A stretch of 64,000 nucleotides of DNA from contig NZ_CP135439.1 in the NCBI RefSeq assembly GCF_032341995.1, positions 2,480,001 to 2,544,000 of the forward strand, in the 5' to 3' direction. Under the pieces are notes generated by a model. It searched no databases. It worked only from the letters and a program-made list of their open reading frames with translations, and was not told the origin of the DNA. The number at the start of each line of letters is the position of its first letter. Positions within the stretch are counted from its first letter, which is position 1. This document shows positions 34,855-44,892 of this stretch, piece by piece. The position numbers and the translations under genes are program-made. This DNA is from Domibacillus sp. DTU_2020_1001157_1_SI_ALB_TIR_016. GTDB lineage: Bacteria; Bacillota; Bacilli; Bacillales; Domibacillaceae.

Positions 34855-34887
34855 AGAAAAAGAAACTCTGCCCTAAGGACAGAGTTC
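34855..34887 (-). terminator. Distal copy of the prsA terminator (hairpin plus U-tract)
   Basis: The hairpin AACTCTGTCC-TTA-GGGCAGAGTT (minus strand) is followed by TTTCTTTTTCTTC. It is the functional-looking copy; an almost identical hairpin without a T-tract lies on the other side of the repeat element at 35278-35302. Confidence 0.8.
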
Positions 34888-35277
34888 CAGTGCGTAGACA
34901 AAGTCTTTCGCTTTTAAAAAAGAGCCGATAAGTGAATTCTGCCGGCTTCGCGTTCCGCGGGCAGTGCGGGAGCCTCCTCGGCTGCGCCTGCGGGGTCTCC
35001 CGACTCACTGTACTTCCCGCAGGAGTCTTCGTCCGGCAGGCTTCACTAAGTAGTGTTGAAGACCAATAAGCAAGGACCAAGTAGACATTTTCTCTTTTTA
35101 AACATAAAGATACGGCCTTTTTAGCTCTATACATCTTGTCGCAAGCCACTTGGCGGCGGGAGGGCGGCGCAGACTCCTATGGGACTAGCAGGCAGATGAG
35201 ACCGGTAGAGCCGCCTGGACGCCGCCGGTCCACCCCATTTATATGCACGATCATCCATATAATTTGTCTACAGTGTG
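34888..35277. repeat. Interspersed repeat copy A (390 bp, composite) inside the prsA terminator
   Basis: The left end is CAGTGCGTAGACAAAG, the right end TTTGTCTACAGTGTG. The left module (to about 34934) and right module (from about 35233) match copies B and C. The interior combines a GC-rich palindromic block (about 34941-35046), an AT-rich block shared with copy B (about 35056-35142) and a second GC-rich block resembling copy C (about 35151-35230). No protein with an RBS was found. It is flanked by 25-bp copies of the prsA terminator hairpin with two mismatches. Confidence 0.85.
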
Positions 35278-35302
35278 AAACTCTGCCCCGAGGACAGAGT
35301 TC
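35278..35302 (-). repeat. Proximal copy of the prsA terminator hairpin, lacking a U-tract
   Basis: Matches 34863-34887 in 23 of 25 positions (only the loop differs). Reading from prsA, the hairpin is followed by TTTCACACTG, so it has lost its T-tract. It lies 6 bases after the prsA stop. Confidence 0.85.
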
Positions 35303-35308
35303 TTTCTT

Positions 35309-36193
35309 TTATTCAAATGAATTGTAAATATCATAATCTTCCTTTTTTTCTTCCAGCCAGGTTGTATATTCACTCGACATTTTTTCTTGCTTGAGCGTTT
35401 CTTTAATTTCCTCTTTGCTGTCTTCCAAGTTAGCGGCTTTCGCTTCTTTCTTTCCTGTTACTTTAATAATATGATAGCCGTAATCGGTTTTAACCGGTTC
35501 GCTGATTTCACCAATCTCCATCGCAAAAGCGGCTTTCTCGAATTCCTCGGTCATTTCCCCTGTACCAAAGTAGCCCAGCTCACCACCATTTTCCGCACTT
35601 GTTGTATCTGTAGAATATTCTTTTGCCAGCGCTGCAAAGTCTTCTCCGTCTGCAAGCTTCGCTGCAACTTCTTTTGCTGTCGCTTCGTCATCTACTAAAA
35701 TGTGGCTGGCTTCTACTTGTTCAGATGTGGCAAACGTATCTTTGTTTTCATTAAAATAAGTCTCGATTTCTTCATCTGTGATTTCGATGCGCGGCTCAAG
35801 CAGTTTCACCGTCTCAAGATATACTTTAATTTCTTCTTTCATATCTGCTTCGGTCATACCGCTTGATTCAAGCGCTGACTTGTACGCTTCTTCTCCTCCG
35901 TACGACTCAATGGTTGCGTCCAGTTCTTCTTGAATCTCCTTATCCGTCACCTGCACCTTTTCCTTAGCGGCTTCTTTTTCCACAATCTTGTCCGCAATTA
36001 ACGATTCCGCTGCGTCTGCTCCGTACATTTTTACAAGTGAATCATACAAATCATCTTTCGTAATTTTGGTTCCGCCTACCTCCGCAATCGTTTCTGCGCT
36101 GCTGCCGGCTGTGGCAAAAAAGAATCCAGCCGCCGCTATTGCTGCGATAATCGCAGCCCATACATACGTTTTTCCTTTTTTTAAAGCGTTCAT
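35309..36193 (-). CDS. prsA: PrsA-type foldase (parvulin peptidyl-prolyl isomerase) without a lipobox
   Basis: A 294-residue exported protein: N-terminal hydrophobic segment (residues 10-28), helical NC domain and a parvulin domain (about 145-250: EASHILVDDEATAKEVAAKL, GGELGYFGTGEMTEEFEKAAFAM, YGYHIIKVT). PrsA helps secreted proteins fold outside the membrane. Typical PrsA is a lipoprotein, but here the segment reads AAAGFFFATAGSSAE with no cysteine, so it is either anchored by an uncut helix or released. The terminator behind it is split by a repeat element. Confidence 0.88.
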   Translation of the reverse strand: MNALKKGKTYVWAAIIAAIAAAGFFFATAGSSAETIAEVGGTKITKDDLYDSLVKMYGADAAESLIADKIVEKEAAKEKVQVTDKEIQEELDATIESYGGEEAYKSALESSGMTEADMKEEIKVYLETVKLLEPRIEITDEEIETYFNENKDTFATSEQVEASHILVDDEATAKEVAAKLADGEDFAALAKEYSTDTTSAENGGELGYFGTGEMTEEFEKAAFAMEIGEISEPVKTDYGYHIIKVTGKKEAKAANLEDSKEEIKETLKQEKMSSEYTTWLEEKKEDYDIYNSFE

Positions 36194-36260
36194 TTTTTCT
36201 CTCCCTGCTATTTATTTTCCGAGTTCAGTATAAAAAACAAAAGTGAAAAAACGGTGAAAG

Positions 36261-36890
36261 TCAAATGAATGTTCCGCCGTTTTTAACAAAATCCATTTCC
36301 TGCTTGATCGCTTCCATTTTTTGATCGAGCGCGGTCATCGTGTCCGCTGCACTTTTCAGTTCTCTTTGCAGGCGGGGCGGAATGACACCGTCAAATTTAT
36401 AAAACAGCTTATGCTCCAGTCCCGCCCAGAAATCCATCGCAGCCGTACGGATTTGCACTTCAACCATCGTTTTTTCGGTTGAAGCCGCCATAAAAACAGG
36501 GATTTCAATGATCGCATACAAACTTTGATAGCCGTTTGGTTTTGGATGTTTGATGTAATCTTTTACATGTGCAAGTTGAATATCCCGCTGTTGATTGAGC
36601 ATTTGCAGCACATGATAGATGTCGGATGCAAACGAACATGTAATGCGAATGCCGGCAATATCGTGCACATGGCGCCGTGCATTTTCCGTGGTTAACGCGT
36701 AACCTTTTCGGTTCAACTTTTGAATAATGCCATGCTGATTTTTCAATCGCGATTTAATATGTTCAATCGGATTGTATTGGTGGATATGCTGAAACTCTTC
36801 ATTTAAAATATTCAGCTTCGTATTTACTTCATCCAGCGCAAATTTGTGAATCAGCATCAGTCTTTTCCATTCACCCATTTCCTGCTCCAT
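36261..36890 (-). CDS. relP: Small alarmone (p)ppGpp synthetase RelP (YwaC/SAS2)
   Basis: A 209-residue single-domain RelA/SpoT synthetase: DIAGIRITCSF, DYIKHPKPNGYQSLYAIIEIPVF, VEVQIRTAAMDFWAGLEHKLFYK. The order and length match B. subtilis YwaC (210). It makes (p)ppGpp from ATP and GDP/GTP under cell-wall or alkaline stress. The ATG follows GGAAGTG. It is downstream of the unknown gene at 37193, with repeat copy B between them. Confidence 0.9.
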   Translation of the reverse strand: MEQEMGEWKRLMLIHKFALDEVNTKLNILNEEFQHIHQYNPIEHIKSRLKNQHGIIQKLNRKGYALTTENARRHVHDIAGIRITCSFASDIYHVLQMLNQQRDIQLAHVKDYIKHPKPNGYQSLYAIIEIPVFMAASTEKTMVEVQIRTAAMDFWAGLEHKLFYKFDGVIPPRLQRELKSAADTMTALDQKMEAIKQEMDFVKNGGTFI

Positions 36891-36954
36891 CTATCGCACT
36901 TCCTTTGTAATGTGATCTGCCTTTTATCGTAGTGGAAGAAAGTGAAAATAAAAT

Positions 36955-36980
36955 GAAAAAAGCACCCTTGAAGGGTGCTT
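36955..36980 (-). terminator. Distal terminator copy behind the unknown gene at 37193-37588
   Basis: The hairpin AAGCACCCT/AGGGTGCTT is followed by TTTTTCATTTTATTTT on the minus strand. A degenerate copy of the hairpin (37174-37194, 17 of 21 identical) lies on the other side of repeat B. Confidence 0.82.
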
Positions 36981-37173
36981 TAGACTGTAAACAATTATAT
37001 GAATGACCGTACACATAAATGGGATGTATTGGCGGCGACAAGATTGTATAGAGCTCATAAGGTCATATCTTTCTGTTTAAAAAAGAGAAAATGTCTATTT
37101 GACCCTTGCTTATGGGTCTTCAATACCACTTATCGGCTCTTTTTTAAAAGCGAAAGACTTTGTCTACACACTG
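36981..37173. repeat. Interspersed repeat copy B (193 bp, inverted) inside a terminator
   Basis: It carries the same ends as copies A and C but in reverse orientation (left TAGACTGTAAACAATT, right CTTTGTCTACACACTG). It lacks the GC-rich blocks and keeps the AT-rich interior also seen in copy A. It interrupts the terminator of the gene at 37193. Confidence 0.85.
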
Positions 37174-37194
37174 AAGCACCCATAAAGGATACTT
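37174..37194 (-). repeat. Degenerate proximal hairpin copy next to repeat B
   Basis: Aligns to 36960-36980 with four differences, which break the stem. It overlaps the stop codon of the gene at 37193-37588. It is interpreted as the target duplication left by insertion of repeat B. Confidence 0.7.
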
Positions 37195-37588
37195 ACTTTT
37201 CGCCATGTCCGCCTATTAACATAAAGTCGCCAAATTGGTTTACATCAACATTGATCCTGTCACATGCATTCAAGTATCTTAAAATGATAATAAACCGGTC
37301 TTGAGAAATCCCCTTTTTCTCCATCTGTGCCCGCATTTCTTCAATGGGGGGAAGCTCGTCTGTTTCCGTCTTTGCCTCCATAAAAGGAGAAAAATATCGG
37401 TATACCGTCTCCACTTCTTCTTTCCGGACAACGGAGAGCTCCCCGAATTCTTTCGCCAGCGCTTCTTCAAATCCATTTTTAAGTCCATAAATATGGCCTT
37501 TATCGGCTTTGTCAATGCCCTGCCGGCTTTGAAGATCGTATAGTTCTCCCATTATTTTTCCGAGGATCAATGTCAGGTTTGTATCCAC
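37193..37588 (-). CDS. Hypothetical soluble protein
   Basis: A 131-residue acidic, helical protein (MDTNLTLILGKIMGELYDLQ..., LNACDRINVDVNQFGDFMLI). No known domain is recognised and there is no membrane segment. The GTG at 37588 has GGAGG 6 bases upstream, so it is probably a real gene. Its terminator contains repeat copy B. Confidence 0.72.
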   Translation of the reverse strand: MDTNLTLILGKIMGELYDLQSRQGIDKADKGHIYGLKNGFEEALAKEFGELSVVRKEEVETVYRYFSPFMEAKTETDELPPIEEMRAQMEKKGISQDRFIIILRYLNACDRINVDVNQFGDFMLIGGHGEK

Positions 37589-37650
37589 TTTATCCCTCCT
37601 TTTTTCTTTAGTCTTAGGCAGATGAACGCTATTTATACAGCTTGAGCCTG

Positions 37651-37947
37651 TTAATCGGAACGAATCTTACGTGCTTCCAGCCACTGGCGGAGAGAAGTTC
37701 TTGAAAAATACGTTTTTCCATTTACATCAACAGATGGAATATCCGGATATTTTTGAAGCAGTTCTTTCGTATCCTGCTTCGGCGCGCCAAAAAAACGATG
37801 CAAAGTATCCTCCTGAATAAGCTCAGACTGACCTCTTCGCTTGAAATGATCGATAAACGTTTTTTCAGATGGATTTTTCCAATTTTTAAGTCCGTCTCCG
37901 ATAAAATAGCCGGCCAGTGCAATACCAGCGCCTAAAAATAAACTCAC
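37651..37947 (-). CDS. Hypothetical membrane-anchored protein with a possible excisionase-like C-terminus
   Basis: A 98-residue protein: a glycine-rich hydrophobic start (MSLFLGAGIALAGYFIGDGL) and a C-terminus (residues 45-98) with EDTLHRFFGAPKQ...PSVDVNGKTYFSRTSLRQWLEARK, which recalls MerR/excisionase-type helix-turn-helix proteins. The GTG at 37947 has GGAGG 7 bases upstream. Function unknown. Confidence 0.7.
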   Translation of the reverse strand: MSLFLGAGIALAGYFIGDGLKNWKNPSEKTFIDHFKRRGQSELIQEDTLHRFFGAPKQDTKELLQKYPDIPSVDVNGKTYFSRTSLRQWLEARKIRSD

Positions 37948-38022
37948 AGCTTGTCCTCCTTTTTTCTTCTGTGCTTTTTTATCTTATGAGCGAATGGCCT
38001 CGCTCATCTCTTTTTCTTCCAT

Positions 38023-38046
38023 AAAAAAAGCGTGCTTCTGCACGCT
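38023..38046 (-). terminator. Terminator of desR
   Basis: The stem AGCGTGC/GCACGCT is followed by seven T on the minus strand, 5 bases after the desR stop. Confidence 0.9.
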
Positions 38047-38051
38047 CTCCT

Positions 38052-38651
38052 TTATTTAAACCAGCCTTTTTCTTTAGATTGAGAAATGGCTTCTATTCGA
38101 TTTTTCACTTCCAGCTTATCGAAAATCGTAGAGATGTAATTGCGGACGGTCCCGTTTTTTAAATTCAGCTGCTTTGCAATCTCTCCTGTGCTTTTTCCTT
38201 CTGAAACAAGAGCCAGCACATCTTTTTCACGTTCCGTCAGCGGATTTTCTTCACTGTATAAGTCATCCATCAATTCCGGCGCATACACTTTTCGGCCATT
38301 CATAATACTACGGATGGAACTCGCCAGTTCATCGCTTGGACTGTCCTTTAGTAAATACCCGCTTACTTTTGCTTTTAGCGCCCGCTGGAAGTAGCCTGTG
38401 CGGGCAAATGTCGTTAAAATAATCACCCTACATGCATCATTTTTTAATTCTTCAGCCGCTTCAAGCCCTGTTTTCAGCGGCATTTCAATATCCATTATAC
38501 AAATGTCCGGCTGCAGCTCCCGCACAAGTGTAACAGCTTCTTCTCCATTTGCAGCTTGTCCAACCACTTCCATATCATCTTCCAAGCTGAGCAGCGACCC
38601 AAGTGCTCCAAGAAGCATGCGCTGGTCCTCTGCAATGACAATGCGAATCAT
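38052..38651 (-). CDS. desR: Response regulator DesR (NarL family), membrane-fluidity response
   Basis: A 199-residue regulator. The receiver has phospho-acceptor Asp54 (ICIMDIEMPLKTG); the LuxR-type helix-turn-helix is LTEREKDVLALVSEGKSTGEIAKQL (about 134-195). In B. subtilis DesR~P activates the desaturase gene. Its start overlaps desK by ATGA, and des lies directly upstream. Confidence 0.93.
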   Translation of the reverse strand: MIRIVIAEDQRMLLGALGSLLSLEDDMEVVGQAANGEEAVTLVRELQPDICIMDIEMPLKTGLEAAEELKNDACRVIILTTFARTGYFQRALKAKVSGYLLKDSPSDELASSIRSIMNGRKVYAPELMDDLYSEENPLTEREKDVLALVSEGKSTGEIAKQLNLKNGTVRNYISTIFDKLEVKNRIEAISQSKEKGWFK

Positions 38652-39781
38652 TTCATTCCCTCCCTGTCATGCTGTGTGACATTGTTCGGTACCGTCATGA
38701 CTAAAACTGTGCCATTTTCACTTCGGAGCTCTAAACTTCCATTTACGAACTCAAGCCGCTCCCGCATACCAGGCAGTCCGCTTCCTTTTCCAATATCCTG
38801 GCGGCTGAGCCCTACACCATCATCTTTTACGGTCATTCGAACGGAATCTTCAAGCTGCTCAATTGATATATGGCAGGAAAAGGCCTGGCTGTGTTTTACG
38901 ATATTCGTTACCGCTTCTTTCATGCACATACTGAGCACATTTTCCACAAACAGCGATACATTTACAAGCTGAAAAGAATCAGCGCCTGTATACTCAATTT
39001 GTGCAGCCCGCAGCATTTGCTGAACAAGCACAATTTCATCATTCACCCGGATGCCCCGCATGGACGAAACAAGGTTTCTCACTTCATTCAATGCGGTTCG
39101 TGCCGTTTGCTGCACATCCAGCAGCTCTCCCTTTGCCCGTTCCGGGTCTTTTTCGATCAGCTTGCGTGCCAAATCGCTTTTTAATCCAATGAGGGAAAGC
39201 TTCTGGCCAAGCGTATCATGCAGATCACGAGCGATCCGCTGGCGTTCCTCTTGTTTCACAAGATCAGCAATCCGATTGTTGGCAAGCTGCAGCTCAGCTT
39301 CAAGCTTATCCTGTTTTTTTCGGTTGTACAATGAAAAGGGCAGCAGCACAATGCCAATAAATACGATGACAATAATGGGAATCTGCTGAATAAACAGCGG
39401 GTCCTGAACCACAAGGTTATAGTTAATCGAACCAATGGTGCTGACCAGGTGGATCACGTAAGCTGTTATAAAAGCCGCACGCTTGCGGATATTTCCATTG
39501 TAATAAGCAATGTAGAATGAAAAGTAAATAAACTGATACATAACCGTCATGGCTACAGAAATGCCGACAAGAAGGCAGACCCAGAAGTAAACCGGCCACC
39601 TGGATGATAAAAAAGCAAACCTGAAGCTGATAAAAAACAAAATCGTTAATGTAATGCCGATGACAATTTCATTCGTGGACGACGACTGAAAAATAAAATA
39701 AAACGGCAGCAGACTTAAAATAATCCATATATAAGGAGACAAACCGGAGCTTTTCCCAAACGATGCGAATCTTTTTTTCAT
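38648..39781 (-). CDS. desK: Thermosensor histidine kinase DesK
   Basis: A 377-residue kinase with about four to five membrane segments (16-150), a coiled linker and a HisKA_3 domain. The phospho-acceptor is His188 in ARDLHDTLGQKLSLIG, the same position as in B. subtilis DesK. The ATP-binding end has DDGVGLSRQDIGKGSGLPGMRERL. DesK senses membrane thickness and fluidity and phosphorylates DesR in the cold. A hairpin terminator lies between des and desK. Confidence 0.94.
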   Translation of the reverse strand: MKKRFASFGKSSGLSPYIWIILSLLPFYFIFQSSSTNEIVIGITLTILFFISFRFAFLSSRWPVYFWVCLLVGISVAMTVMYQFIYFSFYIAYYNGNIRKRAAFITAYVIHLVSTIGSINYNLVVQDPLFIQQIPIIVIVFIGIVLLPFSLYNRKKQDKLEAELQLANNRIADLVKQEERQRIARDLHDTLGQKLSLIGLKSDLARKLIEKDPERAKGELLDVQQTARTALNEVRNLVSSMRGIRVNDEIVLVQQMLRAAQIEYTGADSFQLVNVSLFVENVLSMCMKEAVTNIVKHSQAFSCHISIEQLEDSVRMTVKDDGVGLSRQDIGKGSGLPGMRERLEFVNGSLELRSENGTVLVMTVPNNVTQHDREGMK

Positions 39782-39810
39782 ACGACACCTTTTTTATTTT
39801 TATTTTACCA

Positions 39811-39844
39811 TAAAAAAACTGCCCTCACTTGAGTGGGGGCAGCT
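39811..39844 (-). terminator. Terminator between des and desK
   Basis: The stem CTGCCCTCACT/AGTGGGGGCAG (one G-U pair) is followed by T7 on the minus strand. It would make desK-desR expression partly independent of des. Confidence 0.88.
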
Positions 39845-39851
39845 TTTCAAA

Positions 39852-40877
39852 CTACTGAATGGCACTTCGTTTATCAAGTGAGCCATATGTTTTTTTAGCT
39901 TGTTTAAATGTAACGAATTTATCCTGTTCCTCATCCCAAAGGCGAAACTTTACAGACTGGATACTGGTCCAGAGTGTGATAGTCGGAACACTTTGAAGCG
40001 GTTCGGAATTTGAGTGCGCTGCTTCAAGCTGATAATTTGGCACGCGCGGGCTTAAATGATGCACATGGTGAAAGCCAATATTACCAGTAATCCATTGAAG
40101 CGGCTTTGGCAGTTTGTAAAACGAGCTTCCTTCTACTGCTGCTTTTACGTAGCTCCAATGTTCATCTTCTTCAAAGTACGAATCCTCAAAGGTATGCTGC
40201 ACATAAAACAGCCATACACCCATCGCCCCGGCGATCCAGAACATCGGGCCGTGTACAAGGAGAAACGCCTGCCAGCCGACGAGCCAGCACATAAGAGCGA
40301 CGCCAAGAAGAAGAAGCACATTCGTTAAGTATGTGTTCATGCGCTCTTTTTTGCGGGCGCCTTTCACGTTAAAACGGTTGGTGATCAAGAACACCCATAT
40401 TGGACCAATAACGAACATGATAAACGGATTGCGATATAAACGGTATGCAATACGTGTTTTCAATGGCGCTTCATAATATTCATTAACCGTCAGCATCCAC
40501 ATGTCCCCTGTACCGCGCTTGTCAAGATTTGAGCTTGTTGCGTGGTGGACATTATGGCTGTGCTGCCACTGGTCATACGGGAAAAACGTTAAAACACCTG
40601 TGATCGTGCCTACTACCCGGTTCAGCTTGCGGTTCTTAAAAAAGGAGTGGTGGCAGCAATCGTGAAAAATAATAAAGATGCGTGTAATAAACCCGGCACC
40701 GATTACCGATAACCCGAGTGTCAGCCAGTAGGAAATTTGCAGGCTTTGGTATGCCAGAAACCAGACCAGCAAAAACGGGCCAATTGTATTGATTAATTGA
40801 AAGATGCTTTTATGCGTATCAGATTTTTCATAGGGAGCTACTTGTTTTCGTAAAATTTTTGTATGTTCTTTGCTCAT
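39852..40877 (-). CDS. des: Acyl-lipid desaturase Des (delta-5 type)
   Basis: A 341-residue membrane desaturase. The three histidine boxes are visible: HDCCHHSF, HSHNVHH and GFHHVHH, with four membrane helices. Des introduces double bonds into membrane phospholipid acyl chains when temperature drops. The ATG at 40877 has GGAGG 7 bases upstream. Its upstream region carries GTCATA-type repeats that fit DesR control. Confidence 0.94.
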   Translation of the reverse strand: MSKEHTKILRKQVAPYEKSDTHKSIFQLINTIGPFLLVWFLAYQSLQISYWLTLGLSVIGAGFITRIFIIFHDCCHHSFFKNRKLNRVVGTITGVLTFFPYDQWQHSHNVHHATSSNLDKRGTGDMWMLTVNEYYEAPLKTRIAYRLYRNPFIMFVIGPIWVFLITNRFNVKGARKKERMNTYLTNVLLLLGVALMCWLVGWQAFLLVHGPMFWIAGAMGVWLFYVQHTFEDSYFEEDEHWSYVKAAVEGSSFYKLPKPLQWITGNIGFHHVHHLSPRVPNYQLEAAHSNSEPLQSVPTITLWTSIQSVKFRLWDEEQDKFVTFKQAKKTYGSLDKRSAIQ

Positions 40878-40908
40878 GTTTACGTTCCCTCCGCTCAGTA
40901 ATAACTTT

Positions 40909-40981
40909 ACTATACCGGAAGGAAAACGTGTTGTGCAGTAGCACCCGTCATACAATAAATATGACAAGTGTCATATTTATT
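40909..40981 (-). promoter_or_regulatory. des promoter with DesR-like boxes overlapping the end of the nucleotidase gene
   Basis: -10 TATAGT (40909-40914), 17 bases, TGCACA (40932-40937). Upstream are GTCATA (40947-40952), TATGAC (40960-40965) and GTCATA (40970-40975); the last two form a perfect 13-bp-arm inverted repeat (40954-40981). Relative to the expected start the boxes lie at about -45 to -75, the zone used by DesR in B. subtilis. The repeat covers the stop codon of the upstream nucleotidase gene. Confidence 0.7.
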
Positions 40982-43457
40982 TTTGGCCGAGCAAATAAAG
41001 CACTTTTGCCGCCTCGGCCCGTGTCGCCGTGTCGCCCGGCTTAAATATTTTGCCTGTTCCCTCCATCAAGCCGAGCTGATACGCTTTCTGGATGGATTGT
41101 TGAATAGATGTGCGGTATTGGCCCACATCGGTAAACGGCATAGAGCCCGTTACTTTAACTGCTCCGTGTTTTTTTTCATAAGCGCGCACAAGCATCGCTG
41201 CCATCTCGGCACGGCTGATCGATTTAGCCGGTTCAAACGTTTTAGCTGTTGTGCCCTTTACAACGCCTGCTTCGAATGCAGCCGTAATATCCTGCTTCAG
41301 CCGGCCCTTTACATCGACAAATGGTGTTTCTTTTTGGGCCGTCCATTTCATGGTACGGACGAGCATGCTCGCAAACTGGCCGCGTGTCACATCGCCTTCA
41401 GGATCGAATGTTGCATCGGTTTTGCCTTTAATAATGCCTGCTTCAGCGAGTGCCGCGATATACTCAGCTGCCCAGTGATCCGCTGGCACGTCTGCAAAGG
41501 ACGGCGCACCTGCTGTGCCCTTGTTTAAGTCAAGCTCAAAAATGCCAAATCCTTTTTCATCGGTTTTGCCCGTATACGTAATGTTATCCGTTTCTTTGGC
41601 AAGCGCTTCTGCTTTTGGATTAGAGGTGAACGTTGCTTTCGCTTTTGTTTTGGCAAACGTCCAGTTGTTGTCTACTGCTGCGTCAATTTCTTTGAATTCC
41701 TTTACATAATTCATTACCGCCTGGCGGTTGGAATCCGGTGCTTTTAATACCGTGTTTACGCCGCCTGGGTTCATCAGCTTGCTGCCTGCTGCCCGATAAT
41801 CATTGGTGGCTACGATAAACTCCATCCCATCTGTTACCGGTTTTCCATTAAATTTCAAGTTTTTAATCCGGTTTGCCGATGCGTTGATCACATTTTGTCC
41901 TTTGTCGTATTTCGGCAGGGATGTCACATCGATCTCATAGGTAACGCCGTCGATCACGTCAAAGTTGTAGGTTGGGAAATCCGGGTTAATCAGTGCTTGT
42001 CCATCTTCTTTTGCCGGATCGATCGTGTTAAACTGCCCCGCTGACCACTCAAGCCATTCTTTCAAAGTGGCACCGTTCACTTTAACGGCATTGACAACGT
42101 TGTTGTCGTATAGGTACAAATCTGCAATGTTTTTCAGCACGAGCGTGCCCGCCTGGACATCCGTATAATCTTCTACGCCGCCGCGTCCTGCTTTAAATGG
42201 TGCCGCTGCTGAAAGAACAGGAAGGTTCTCATATTGCGTACCTTTCAGTGTATCTTCTACATACCATGTTTGTGCCCGGTTTAAAATTTCCATTGCCGCA
42301 TTATCCCGCACAAGGCCAAAATACGTATTTAAATCTCCTTTGAGCTCTCCTACCGGTGTTTCCATATACTTAATCGTCGCTTCGTGCTCGGTTTGAACAG
42401 ATGCTGCAACAGCGGCATCCGCTTCTACAGTCACATTACCGGATGTAATCGGCTTAAGAGAACCGGTTCCGCTTGTTACATCCCATTTTCCGTTCACTTT
42501 TTGAACCTGGAGATCAATCAGCCCAATGTTATTGCCCCATGAGCCAGGCATAACCATTGGAACACCATTAATGGTCCCATTTGTATTGTCGATACCGTTT
42601 CCATCTGGAAAAGATGGCTTAGCCGCATTCGGAAAGCTCAAATGCTGGTGGCCTGTTAAAACAGCATCCACACCTGGAATTTTCGTTAAATAATAAGAGG
42701 CGTTTTCAATACCTTCTGTATACTCTTTCATGGCGCCGTTCTGGTCATACTCGGCAATGCCGGAATGCGAAAGAACCACGATTACATCCGCCCCCGCTTC
42801 CTTCATTTGCGGCACCACCTTTTGAGCGGAATTTACAATGTCTTCCACCACCAATTTTCCTTCTAGGTGCTTGGCATCCCATTTCATAATATCCTGGGGC
42901 ACAAAGCCGGTAACGCCGACTTTAATTGTATGTACTTCTCCGTCTGTATCTTTTACTTCTTTTTCAATGATTTTAAACGGTGTAAAATACGGATTTCCTT
43001 CCGTGTCATAAACGTTCGCATTTACGTATGGAAACGCTGCTCCGTTAAGCGCTGTATCCATATACTCAAGCCCGTAGTTGAATTCATGGTTGCCGATTGT
43101 TGCTGCATCGTAGCCCAGTTGATTCATCGCTTTGTATACCGGGTGAATATAGCCTTCCTTCATTAATCCATTGTTATAAACGTAATCACCAAGTGGACTT
43201 CCTTGAATTAAATCACCGTTGTCAAAAAGCATGCTGTTGTCTGCTTCCCCGCGCACCTGTTTGATTAAGGCAGCCGCTTTAGCAAGCCCGTAGGCGTTTG
43301 TCGCCGAATCCTTATAGTAATCATAGTTCATTACATTAGAATGAAGATCGGATGTTTCTACAATACGCAGCTTTACAGTATCTTCGGCTGCCTGTGCCAT
43401 CTGCGGCACAAATAATCCTGCTGCAATAACGGTTCCTACTGTCCACGCTTTTTTCAT
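40977..43457 (-). CDS. Surface-anchored 2',3'-cyclic-nucleotide phosphodiesterase/3'-nucleotidase with SLH domains
   Basis: An 826-residue secreted protein: signal peptide (1-23), metallophosphatase domain (ETSDLHSN, DNGDLIQG, GNHEFNYG, VLSHSG, GHQHLS), 5'-nucleotidase C-terminal domain (about 350-610) and three S-layer-homology repeats (about 645-826: FADVPADHWAAEYIAALAEAG, PFVDVKGRLKQDITAAFEAG, MPFTDVGQYRTSIQQSIQKA). It releases phosphate and nucleosides from extracellular nucleotides and is held on secondary cell-wall polymer. A PhoP-box-like array is upstream. Confidence 0.93.
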   Translation of the reverse strand: MKKAWTVGTVIAAGLFVPQMAQAAEDTVKLRIVETSDLHSNVMNYDYYKDSATNAYGLAKAAALIKQVRGEADNSMLFDNGDLIQGSPLGDYVYNNGLMKEGYIHPVYKAMNQLGYDAATIGNHEFNYGLEYMDTALNGAAFPYVNANVYDTEGNPYFTPFKIIEKEVKDTDGEVHTIKVGVTGFVPQDIMKWDAKHLEGKLVVEDIVNSAQKVVPQMKEAGADVIVVLSHSGIAEYDQNGAMKEYTEGIENASYYLTKIPGVDAVLTGHQHLSFPNAAKPSFPDGNGIDNTNGTINGVPMVMPGSWGNNIGLIDLQVQKVNGKWDVTSGTGSLKPITSGNVTVEADAAVAASVQTEHEATIKYMETPVGELKGDLNTYFGLVRDNAAMEILNRAQTWYVEDTLKGTQYENLPVLSAAAPFKAGRGGVEDYTDVQAGTLVLKNIADLYLYDNNVVNAVKVNGATLKEWLEWSAGQFNTIDPAKEDGQALINPDFPTYNFDVIDGVTYEIDVTSLPKYDKGQNVINASANRIKNLKFNGKPVTDGMEFIVATNDYRAAGSKLMNPGGVNTVLKAPDSNRQAVMNYVKEFKEIDAAVDNNWTFAKTKAKATFTSNPKAEALAKETDNITYTGKTDEKGFGIFELDLNKGTAGAPSFADVPADHWAAEYIAALAEAGIIKGKTDATFDPEGDVTRGQFASMLVRTMKWTAQKETPFVDVKGRLKQDITAAFEAGVVKGTTAKTFEPAKSISRAEMAAMLVRAYEKKHGAVKVTGSMPFTDVGQYRTSIQQSIQKAYQLGLMEGTGKIFKPGDTATRAEAAKVLYLLGQK

Positions 43458-43527
43458 TCAACTGCCCCCCTAAACTATTTTTTCAATATAGGAATTATAG
43501 CATGATCGGCTTAAAGAAATGAGAAAA

Positions 43528-43566
43528 TTTACAATTATCTAAATAAAACTTTACATTATGTCAAAT
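43528..43566. promoter_or_regulatory. PhoP-box-like array upstream of the nucleotidase gene
   Basis: Four hexamers with 5-base spacing (11-bp period) on the plus strand: TTTACA, CTAAAT, TTTACA, TCAAAT. Bacillus PhoP binds TT(A/C/T)A(C/T)A repeats of this period. They lie about 70-110 bp before the nucleotidase start, but in reverse orientation to the gene. A -10-like TATAAT lies at 43494-43499 (minus). Confidence 0.5.
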
Positions 43567-43597
43567 AAAAAAAGACATTTCAACTGAAATGTCTCAG
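43566..43597 (-). terminator. Distal hairpin copy with U-tract next to repeat C
   Basis: The stem AGACATTTC/GAAATGTCT is followed by T7 on the minus strand. The 23 bases at 43575-43597 match 43786-43808 in 21 positions. Confidence 0.82.
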
Positions 43598-43785
43598 TGC
43601 GTAGACAAAGTCTTTCGCTTTAAAAAAAGAGCCGATAAGTGAAGCCTGCCGGACTTCGCGTTCCATGGGCGGAGCAGACTCCTATGGGCTCAGCGCCTGC
43701 CCCATGGAACGCGGAGCTGCCTGGACGCCGCCGATCCATCCCATTCATGTGCACGGTCGTCCATATAATTTGTCTACAGTCTCAT
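43598..43785. repeat. Interspersed repeat copy C (188 bp) inside a terminator
   Basis: Same orientation and ends as copy A: TGCGTAGACAAAGTCTTTCG at the left, CCATATAATTTGTCTACAGT at the right. The interior is a GC-rich block with the 12-bp inverted repeat GCGTTCCATGGG/CCCATGGAACGC (43658-43669 and 43701-43712). The AT-rich block of copies A and B is missing. It sits in the 3' region of the methyltransferase gene at 43875. Confidence 0.87.
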
Positions 43786-43808
43786 ACATTTCAATTGAAA
43801 TGTATCAG
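43786..43808 (-). repeat. Proximal hairpin copy next to repeat C, lacking a U-tract
   Basis: The stem ATACATTTC/GAAATGTAT; on the minus strand it runs into ATGAGACTG rather than a T-tract. Likely target duplication. Confidence 0.8.
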
Positions 43809-43874: not shown

Positions 43875-44810
43875 TTATGAACAGGAGAGAATGCGTCTGG
43901 AAAAAGTACTTTTTCTTGCAATGCAGCGGTCTTGAATAGCAAAACCTGCTTTCTCAACCATTTCTTCAATCGGATCAATCGATACGACAACGAGCCTGTC
44001 GGCAATGCGCCGTGCATGCGTTAAAATGGACTGCAGCTCATCAGGTGTTGCATGTGTATACAGATTATATGGCATATCAATAATCGCTACATCATAATGC
44101 TCTTCTACTTCTTCAATCGGTCCGAGTGTGACACAGCCTTCGAGGCCAAAGTAAGCCAGGTTTTCACGCGAGCCTCCAACAACAAGCGGATTGATATCGC
44201 GCCCCTCAATGTCCATCCCCATTGATAAAGCTTCCACTAAAACAGTCCCGATCCCGCAGCATGGATCGACAGCCCGAATGCCTTCTGGCTCTGGTACAGC
44301 AATATTCGCCATGACCCGGGCATCTCGGGCACTGAGCGCTGTTGAATATTCACGCGGCTTTTGAATATGTTTCATCCATACACGCTTGTTTTTCTCATAA
44401 CGCCCCAGATACCAGCGTCCGCCGCAAGCCACAAGGCCAAAAAGGTGATCCGGATTTTTCAAGTCCGCTTCCCCAATAATTTCCCAGCCAATAGCCCGTT
44501 CAATTTCCAGCCGTTCCTGATATTCTACTTTTTTTTCAGGTGGCAGGTCGTTCGTTTTCACAAAAATCGCTTTAAATGTTTCACTTCCTATATCGATGCT
44601 GCCGGCTTTTTGAACGATGTCAGCCACCGAATCCGCCTCAAGAAGCACTTCTACTTTTTCCCGTATAAACGGGCTTCGATTCACGTCCAGATCGACACTG
44701 CTTTTCACTACCGGTCCGGAGGCAGACGAACCGAAAAAAGCACGCAGCTCCATTTCAGCCAGTTCTTCGTCTTCCTCACTATAATTCACTGTATAAATAA
44801 ATTCGTTCAC
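43875..44810 (-). CDS. Trm11/TrmG10-like RNA methyltransferase
   Basis: A 311-residue protein with an N-terminal THUMP-like region and a Rossmann methyltransferase domain: DPCCGIGTVLVEALSMG (SAM binding), GRDINPLVVGGSRENLAYFG and the catalytic-type IDMPYNLY, a variant of the DPPY motif of guanosine N2-methyltransferases. The target is probably tRNA (inference). The GTG at 44810 has AGAAGGA 5 bases upstream; the longer frame lacks an RBS. Confidence 0.85.
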   Translation of the reverse strand: MNEFIYTVNYSEEDEELAEMELRAFFGSSASGPVVKSSVDLDVNRSPFIREKVEVLLEADSVADIVQKAGSIDIGSETFKAIFVKTNDLPPEKKVEYQERLEIERAIGWEIIGEADLKNPDHLFGLVACGGRWYLGRYEKNKRVWMKHIQKPREYSTALSARDARVMANIAVPEPEGIRAVDPCCGIGTVLVEALSMGMDIEGRDINPLVVGGSRENLAYFGLEGCVTLGPIEEVEEHYDVAIIDMPYNLYTHATPDELQSILTHARRIADRLVVVSIDPIEEMVEKAGFAIQDRCIARKSTFSRRILSCS

Positions 44811-44892
44811 ATTGATCCTTCTTTCTATTATCCTCTGCTTCATTTATTTTGACATACTTTTCTCCATTGGGCTCCTTTTTTTCATGGAAAAT

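Follow-up and report, generated by a model that had tools for sequence, protein, structure and literature searches.

Short IS1182-related elements of Domibacillus lie between duplicated terminator hairpins that were probably their insertion targets

The window analyzed here, a stretch of 64,000 nucleotides from Domibacillus sp. DTU_2020_1001157_1_SI_ALB_TIR_016 (contig NZ_CP135439.1, positions 2,480,001 to 2,544,000), contains three short elements, each located downstream of a minus-strand ORF. Element A (34888–35277, plus strand, 390 bp, ends CAGTGCGTAGACAAAG...TTTGTCTACAGTGTG) follows a 294-aa ORF (35309–36193, minus strand) whose product we take to resemble a PrsA-type foldase; element B (36981–37173, minus strand, i.e. 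inverted, 193 bp) follows a 131-aa ORF (37193–37588, minus strand), and element C (43595–43783, plus strand, 189 bp) a 322-aa ORF (43875–44843, minus strand). Each is bordered on both sides by a copy of the same hairpin. For A, the left, gene-distal copy occupies residues 34863–34887, next to an A-tract (34857–34861), and the right, gene-proximal copy (35278–35302) differs from it at 2 of 25 positions; for B, the gene-distal copy (36960–36980, adjoining A-tract 36956–36961) and the gene-proximal one (37174–37194) differ at 4 of 21, and for C (43573–43594 with A-tract 43567–43573, and 43784–43805) at 3 of 22. The A-tract, which corresponds to the U-tract of the minus-strand transcript, adjoins the gene-distal copy in all three cases. 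The first-pass annotation of this DNA had placed each element inside the terminator of a minus-strand gene, with the U-tract retained only at the gene-distal hairpin, and both statements agree with the ORFs upstream, the paired hairpins at all three sites and the position of the A-tracts. Its coordinates and hairpin comparisons are exact for A and B; C is shifted with respect to the 43598–43785 given there, and 2 mismatches in 23 bp had been reported for its hairpins.

The ends of the elements had also been described as imperfect inverted repeats of one another, which is correct apart from the extent of the right end: it runs 3 nt beyond the TTTGTCTACAGT proposed originally (CTG in most copies; GTG, CTA and CTC in the window copies), so that the terminal repeats measure about 15 bp. 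The consensus termini, CAGTGTGTAGACAAA and TTTGTCTACAGTCTG, form a 15-bp inverted repeat with two mismatches. A G+C-rich block inside copy A (34940–35050) has no counterpart in copy B, which suggests nested insertion or else loss of internal sequence. A megablast comparison of residues 30000–48000 of the window with plasmids gave no match.

Searching for the consensus ends, as the first-pass annotation had recommended, revealed further copies in the same genome and in related ones, mostly flanked by hairpins. In the genome of origin (5.10 Mb, two contigs) the left-end pattern occurs at 36 places, 35 of which are elements; the remaining place (L036) holds none and was dropped before counting. 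The same hairpin is found on both sides in 32 of the 35, and in the other three (L007, L018, L019) the left-end hairpin is present and a second copy is not recognizable; copies without duplicated hairpins, which in large numbers would have spoken against the original proposal, are confined to these three exceptions. Flank scores were calculated for 31 of the 35 elements, excluding the three just named and L020, whose visible second hairpin brings the hairpin count to 32. The two flanks of one and the same copy score 13–28 (median 21), mismatched flank pairs reach at most 15 (n = 930; seven at 13 or above) and control flanks taken 100 bp further out score 5–11. Thus, 27 of the 31 scores lie above the mismatched range; the other four (13, 13, 14 and 15) fall inside it, and those sites are for this reason not individually significant. 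The scored copies measure 189–450 bp (n = 31) and therefore have no room for a 450-aa transposase.

By simple ORF calling, one or two genes point at the element in 28 of 30 sites (12 from the left only, 9 from the right only, 7 convergent) and none in the remaining two; this set leaves out L032 in addition to the four copies excluded above. Greater stability of the gene-distal hairpin copy, which had been expected and would have been an indirect sign of element RNA belonging to the host 3' UTR, was not found among the 21 one-sided sites (9 for, 6 against, 6 ties, p = 0.61). Of the 13 genomes examined in the genus, 7 contain the pattern when up to three mismatches are allowed, although G001, G005 and G007, with one or two matches apiece, show no clear elements there; with up to two mismatches it was matched in 4 of 24 genomes sampled from the family, all of the same genus, namely the genome of origin, G006, G009 and G010.

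Several further observations concern the hairpins and their neighbors. The terminator loop is reverse-complemented between the two hairpin copies of L034 (G000:C2:711890-712320), and between strains at L013, L024 and L033; cutting of cruciforms or template switching could produce inversions of this kind within palindromes. A second small family of about 140 bp, running from GAGAGTGTAGACAAAGTAAGAAAGCAGGCTG to CAGCCTG, has a similar outer repeat and is likewise located between duplicated hairpins (L072, G000:C1:849400-851400, and L074, C2:1436900-1439000). In a third family, which starts with CAGNNTGTAGACAAATAAA (L068, L070, L071 and L075 of G000), hairpins adjoin the ends that were seen.

The state of these sites before insertion was approached through 34 left flanks, which were searched for in G006, a genome of the same species, and in G010, from the same genus; 31 sites were kept. 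Sites were classed as empty or occupied by gap length and anchor score, and the printed sites were then read; comparison rows are missing for L028 in G006 and for L002, L011 and L028 in G010. Among the 30 sites compared in G006, 18 are empty, 10 occupied and 2 other, and the 28 compared in G010 comprise 9 empty, 15 occupied and 4 other, so that 19 of the 31 sites are empty in one or both genomes. As for the window copies, the site of A is empty in G010 and that of B in G006; C is also present in G010, and in G006 it has lost its right part together with the hairpin on that side. The 27 sites classed as empty hold one hairpin each, often with the A-tract and the T-tract together, though not always. 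L019, outside this count, looks empty in both genomes, again with one hairpin. The G010 orthologue of L030 (L273, class other) lacks an element and yet carries two hairpins, the result of a tandem duplication that took in flanking DNA as well; it is the sole case of the two-hairpin empty site which the first-pass annotation had named as evidence against its proposal.

The elements have the form of a MITE, a short non-autonomous transposon. A search of four genomes for the bare inverted repeat located two inward-facing copies 1.6 kb apart in G009. This locus, L060, is an intact IS with a 452-aa ORF, ends CAGACTGTAGACAAA...TTTGTCTACAGTCTG and a perfect 22-bp hairpin duplication; the full-length relative with a transposase that had been called for thus exists. 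The L060 transposase matches the NCBIfam model NF033551 (IS1182) with E = 2.6e-142 (475.1 bits, cut-off 270) and contains the Pfam domains DUF772, DDE_Tnp_1 and DDE_Tnp_1_6; terminal inverted repeats bound its ORF, as in other members of the IS1182 family. The MITE consensus termini agree with the L060 ends at 13 of 15 positions on the left and 15 of 15 on the right, A, B and C having 1–3 further end changes relative to that consensus. Beyond the ends there is little likeness between MITE and IS, and what they have in common is the hairpin-type target duplication, found in the 32 of 35 MITE copies mentioned above and in 50 of 81 IS loci described below. A transposase match of only 38 residues is found in the genome of origin, where a search with Pfam PF05598 gave 0 matches; an open copy is located in G006 at C111. 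The mover of the window copies is therefore deduced from relatives. IS1182 copies or ends appear at or near contig ends in the drafts of G006 (C100, C111, C117, C122) and G009 (C26, C27, C76), as expected for a multi-copy IS. From a comparison of sequences, we consider it almost certain that the window elements are a MITE of the IS1182 family; they would have been moved in trans.

A protein search with the transposase yielded at least 8,000 candidates at E ≤ 0.001, the 120 listed being 78–96% identical. The IS set examined for target duplications consists of the best 80 of at least 197 confirmed relatives plus L060, and all 81 loci were kept in the denominator; the hosts include Bacillaceae, Caryophanaceae, Saccharibacillus, Exiguobacterium, Enterococcus and Clostridia. 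With the ends fixed to CAG and CTG, a duplication of 18–42 bp (median 26) was found at 50 of the 81 loci, letter-perfect in 48 of the 50 (looser ends gave 48 in 81, and a first pass covered 59 loci); the ends of these 50 loci lie within the search pattern, with up to 2 substitutions. When a hairpin was sought in the duplication and 15 bp on each side of it, its center coincided exactly with that of the duplication in 46 of the 50, the others being off by 0.5, 1.0, 2.5 and 2.5 bp. Leaving out two duplications with mismatches and two without a callable G:C stem, the duplication extends 1–3 bp past the first G:C pair in 38 of 46 loci; in the other 8 its edge lies between 10 bp inside and 12 bp outside that pair. 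Stem span and duplication length are correlated (Spearman 0.69, Pearson 0.44), partly by construction, because the span was measured about the center of the duplication. The two flanks of one IS locus score at least 13, and cross pairs (n = 2,450) at most 5; chance as the origin of the paired hairpins is ruled out by the cross-flank controls of the MITE and IS sets. The first base of the duplication is A in 44 of 50 loci, and on the outer sides there is an A-tract in 26, a T-tract in 33, either in 43 and neither in 7 (6 and 7 in the tract control 100 bp further out, where the locus was long enough).

No such duplication is seen at 31 of the 81 loci, several of which are truncated copies or lie at contig ends. 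Eleven of them were read by eye: the left and right hairpins of L140 and L166 are unlike, as recombination between copies could leave them; at L107, L139, L147, L167, L171 and L185 a hairpin flanks one side of the element; at L160 the contig stops after a repeat of 9 bases from the start of the left hairpin, and L183 and L145 show no clear pattern at their flanks. The transposase tree (very long branches, midpoint root, an ill-chosen row for L171) served for no statement about clades. The 21–25 bp target duplication proposed in the first-pass annotation therefore stands as a duplication and not as a fixed range, its length following the hairpin. We have very little doubt that the hairpin is the target duplication, and insertion into a terminator with duplication of its hairpin, as originally proposed, is now backed by single-hairpin empty sites, further copies and autonomous relatives with perfect duplications.

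The left end of the IS elements itself resembles a terminator. In 32 of 37 unique left ends the predicted fold pairs at least 8 of 12 bases of the inverted repeat, and 27 of the 37 are terminator-shaped, combining this pairing with at least 6 T in the next 10 bases; 36 of 37 fold at z < -2 against dinucleotide shuffles. An inverted copy of the terminal repeat occurs within 100 bp at 35 of 50 left ends, and the mirrored control gives 0. Right ends also fold strongly (z < -2 in 35 of 37), but the terminal repeat rarely takes part in the pairing (8 or more of its 12 bases in 7 of 37). For the MITE copies, one fold did not clearly reveal a terminator-like left end. The predicted folds lead us to infer that the IS left end may act as an intrinsic terminator and so stop transcripts that have run through the left hairpin, which lacks a tract; this end may also look to the transposase like the same kind of object as its target.

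Taken as a whole, the best explanation is that A, B and C are MITE copies moved by IS1182 into hairpins, to which we assign a probability of roughly 0.8. The target, either an intrinsic terminator or some other palindrome, would be extruded into a hairpin or cruciform, and its two 5' feet would thereby come close in space. An IS1182-family DDE transposase acting in trans on the MITE would transfer each 3' end of the element to a 5' foot of the hairpin, one per strand, mostly 1–3 bp outside the G:C stem, and gap filling would copy the whole hairpin to either side of the element. Because the gap fill would copy the entire hairpin, the length of the duplication would track the hairpin and have no fixed stagger; indeed, duplications of such variable length, centered on the palindrome, cannot be produced by a fixed stagger. 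Where the target possessed tracts, its A-tract would end up outside the left hairpin copy and its T-tract outside the right one. A hairpin and a tract would thus be left for transcripts arriving from each side, and insertion should therefore be nearly harmless. The extrusion of the hairpin, deduced from geometry, is a probable part of this scheme, held with less confidence than the whole.

Two other accounts leave the hairpin as target and change the way it is read. The feet, i.e. the borders between A-tract and G:C stem, might be recognized as separate signals in double-stranded DNA and cut with a long, variable stagger without extrusion, in line with the preference for A at the edge of the duplication (44/50) and with the tract found on an outer side of 43 of the 50 targets. 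This is unlikely: a long variable stagger is hard for one pair of DDE active sites, all the more so when it ranges from 18 to 42 bp and is centered on the palindrome in 46 of 50 cases, and 7 targets have neither tract. We give as little weight to an attack on the hairpin as single-stranded DNA, at a replication fork or in a transcription bubble, instead of a duplex cruciform. Hairpins form readily in single strands and the end product would be identical; against this, the duplication needs both strands to be joined at the feet of one hairpin, and the likely mover is a DDE transposase.

The remaining accounts deny that insertion duplicated the hairpin. Had hairpins been duplicated beforehand, in tandem or locally, with the elements arriving later or spreading by homologous recombination, the element-free pair of hairpins at L030 in G010 would be explained, and the unlike hairpins beside L140 and L166 are compatible with recombination between copies. 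The 27 empty sites holding a single hairpin refute prior duplication as a general cause, and the perfect IS duplications end near the hairpin edges, so that this account is very improbable. Still less credible is an IS1272-like replacement of the stem-loop with both hairpins regained later: the transposase family is the same and IS1272 targets terminator hairpins, but in the available text of the reports (PMC4923244, PMC5678879) it deletes the stem-loop without duplication, whereas here 48 of 50 duplications match letter for letter, with no relation in sequence from one site to the next. A replacement of the IS1272 type is refuted by perfect copies as long as 42 bp. Removal of the stem-loop was also considered in its own right, and the stem-loop is present on both sides.

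Returning to the duplication of the hairpin upon insertion, only some members of the IS1182 family show it, as judged from plasmid-borne relatives, a distant member in G003 and ISPse1, all of which include different behavior. In the six plasmid-borne relatives fetched, the hairpin is duplicated in two, from Macrococcoides canis (49% identical) and Rhizobium ruizarguesonis (43%), and no duplication was found in the other four (an ISEfa7 copy, ISCfr1, a Staphylococcus epidermidis copy with uncertain ends and a Dinoroseobacter copy). The G003 member, whose best piece is 26% identical, carries a non-palindromic direct repeat of about 10 bp, GATCAGCGGG. For ISPse1, a table row in PMC3281130 reads as a 4-bp direct repeat, the meaning of the column being presumed, and the type of duplication therefore varies within the family. 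Most DDE transposases make a target duplication of fixed length, and hairpin-long duplications point to a target choice guided by DNA shape rather than sequence. As their length varies with the hairpin and their center mostly coincides with it to the base, structure-guided target choice is directly testable. The taxa behind this reading are Bacillaceae, other Bacillales, Exiguobacterium, Enterococcus and Clostridia, together with the Macrococcoides and Rhizobium plasmids. A tentative generalization, to which we give slightly less than even odds, is that a widespread part of IS1182 transposes by DNA shape, taking an extruded hairpin as target, cutting near both feet at any length and having a left end built likewise, with the inverted repeat as 5' arm of a hairpin followed by a T-tract. 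If so, the element would carry terminators into terminators, with transcription kept closed on either side.

Among known systems, group IIC introns insert at terminators as well; they are retroelements and are not known to have terminal inverted repeats or to duplicate a hairpin. The elements described here share the terminator as insertion site and differ in duplicating its hairpin, and the region has no Rfam match, and so none to a group II ribozyme structure (0 matches at E ≤ 0.1 in window residues 34500–44200). Bacterial MITEs, as presented in the available text of PMC10969869, are likewise short, non-autonomous and mostly intergenic, with IS-like terminal inverted repeats; a whole-hairpin duplication of variable length, which the window MITEs have, is not named there. 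One link to the IS1182 family is the match of the L060 transposase to the family model, the window copies themselves carrying no transposase. Palindromic sequences are said to serve as targets for some members of this family (Siguier 2015, cited by PMC5678879 and PMC4923244), and IS1182 is among the families over-represented between convergent genes (PMC9208149, available text). IS1272 and TnSha1 of Staphylococcus target stem-loops, several of them confirmed terminators, without primary-sequence specificity, and according to the same partial source (PMC4923244) the target hairpin is deleted or replaced and no target duplication arises; stem-loop targeting is thus common to both systems, with the stem-loop lost in theirs and duplicated in ours. 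ISPse1 of Paracoccus, placed in the same family by its authors' naming (PMC3281130, table entry), has 4 bp where a hairpin-long duplication is seen here.

The first-pass annotation had stated that it was aware of no described element of exactly this pattern. Kin does exist in IS1182, some members of which target hairpins, and the statement holds in so far as the hairpin-long duplication has been described only as a possible pathway: pathway b in Fig. 13 of PMC5678879 (2017) draws stem-loop duplication as a possibility beside the IS1272 replacement pathway. Within the partial texts searched, hairpin-long duplications by IS1182 members appear only there, and ISfinder, TnPedia or the Siguier reviews may already record them as palindromic repeats. 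The present comparison gives support to a pathway drawn, and not shown, in 2017, explains the paired terminators around interspersed repeats located at the ends of genes, and suggests a way for a mobile element to spread from terminator to terminator and still leave a hairpin to its left and to its right. Thus, the IS1182 kinship, the targeting of hairpins and stem-loop duplication as a drawn possibility are already known, and what is new, as far as the texts covered extend, is the comparative demonstration together with the match of centers, the edge rule, the MITEs and the terminator-shaped IS end.
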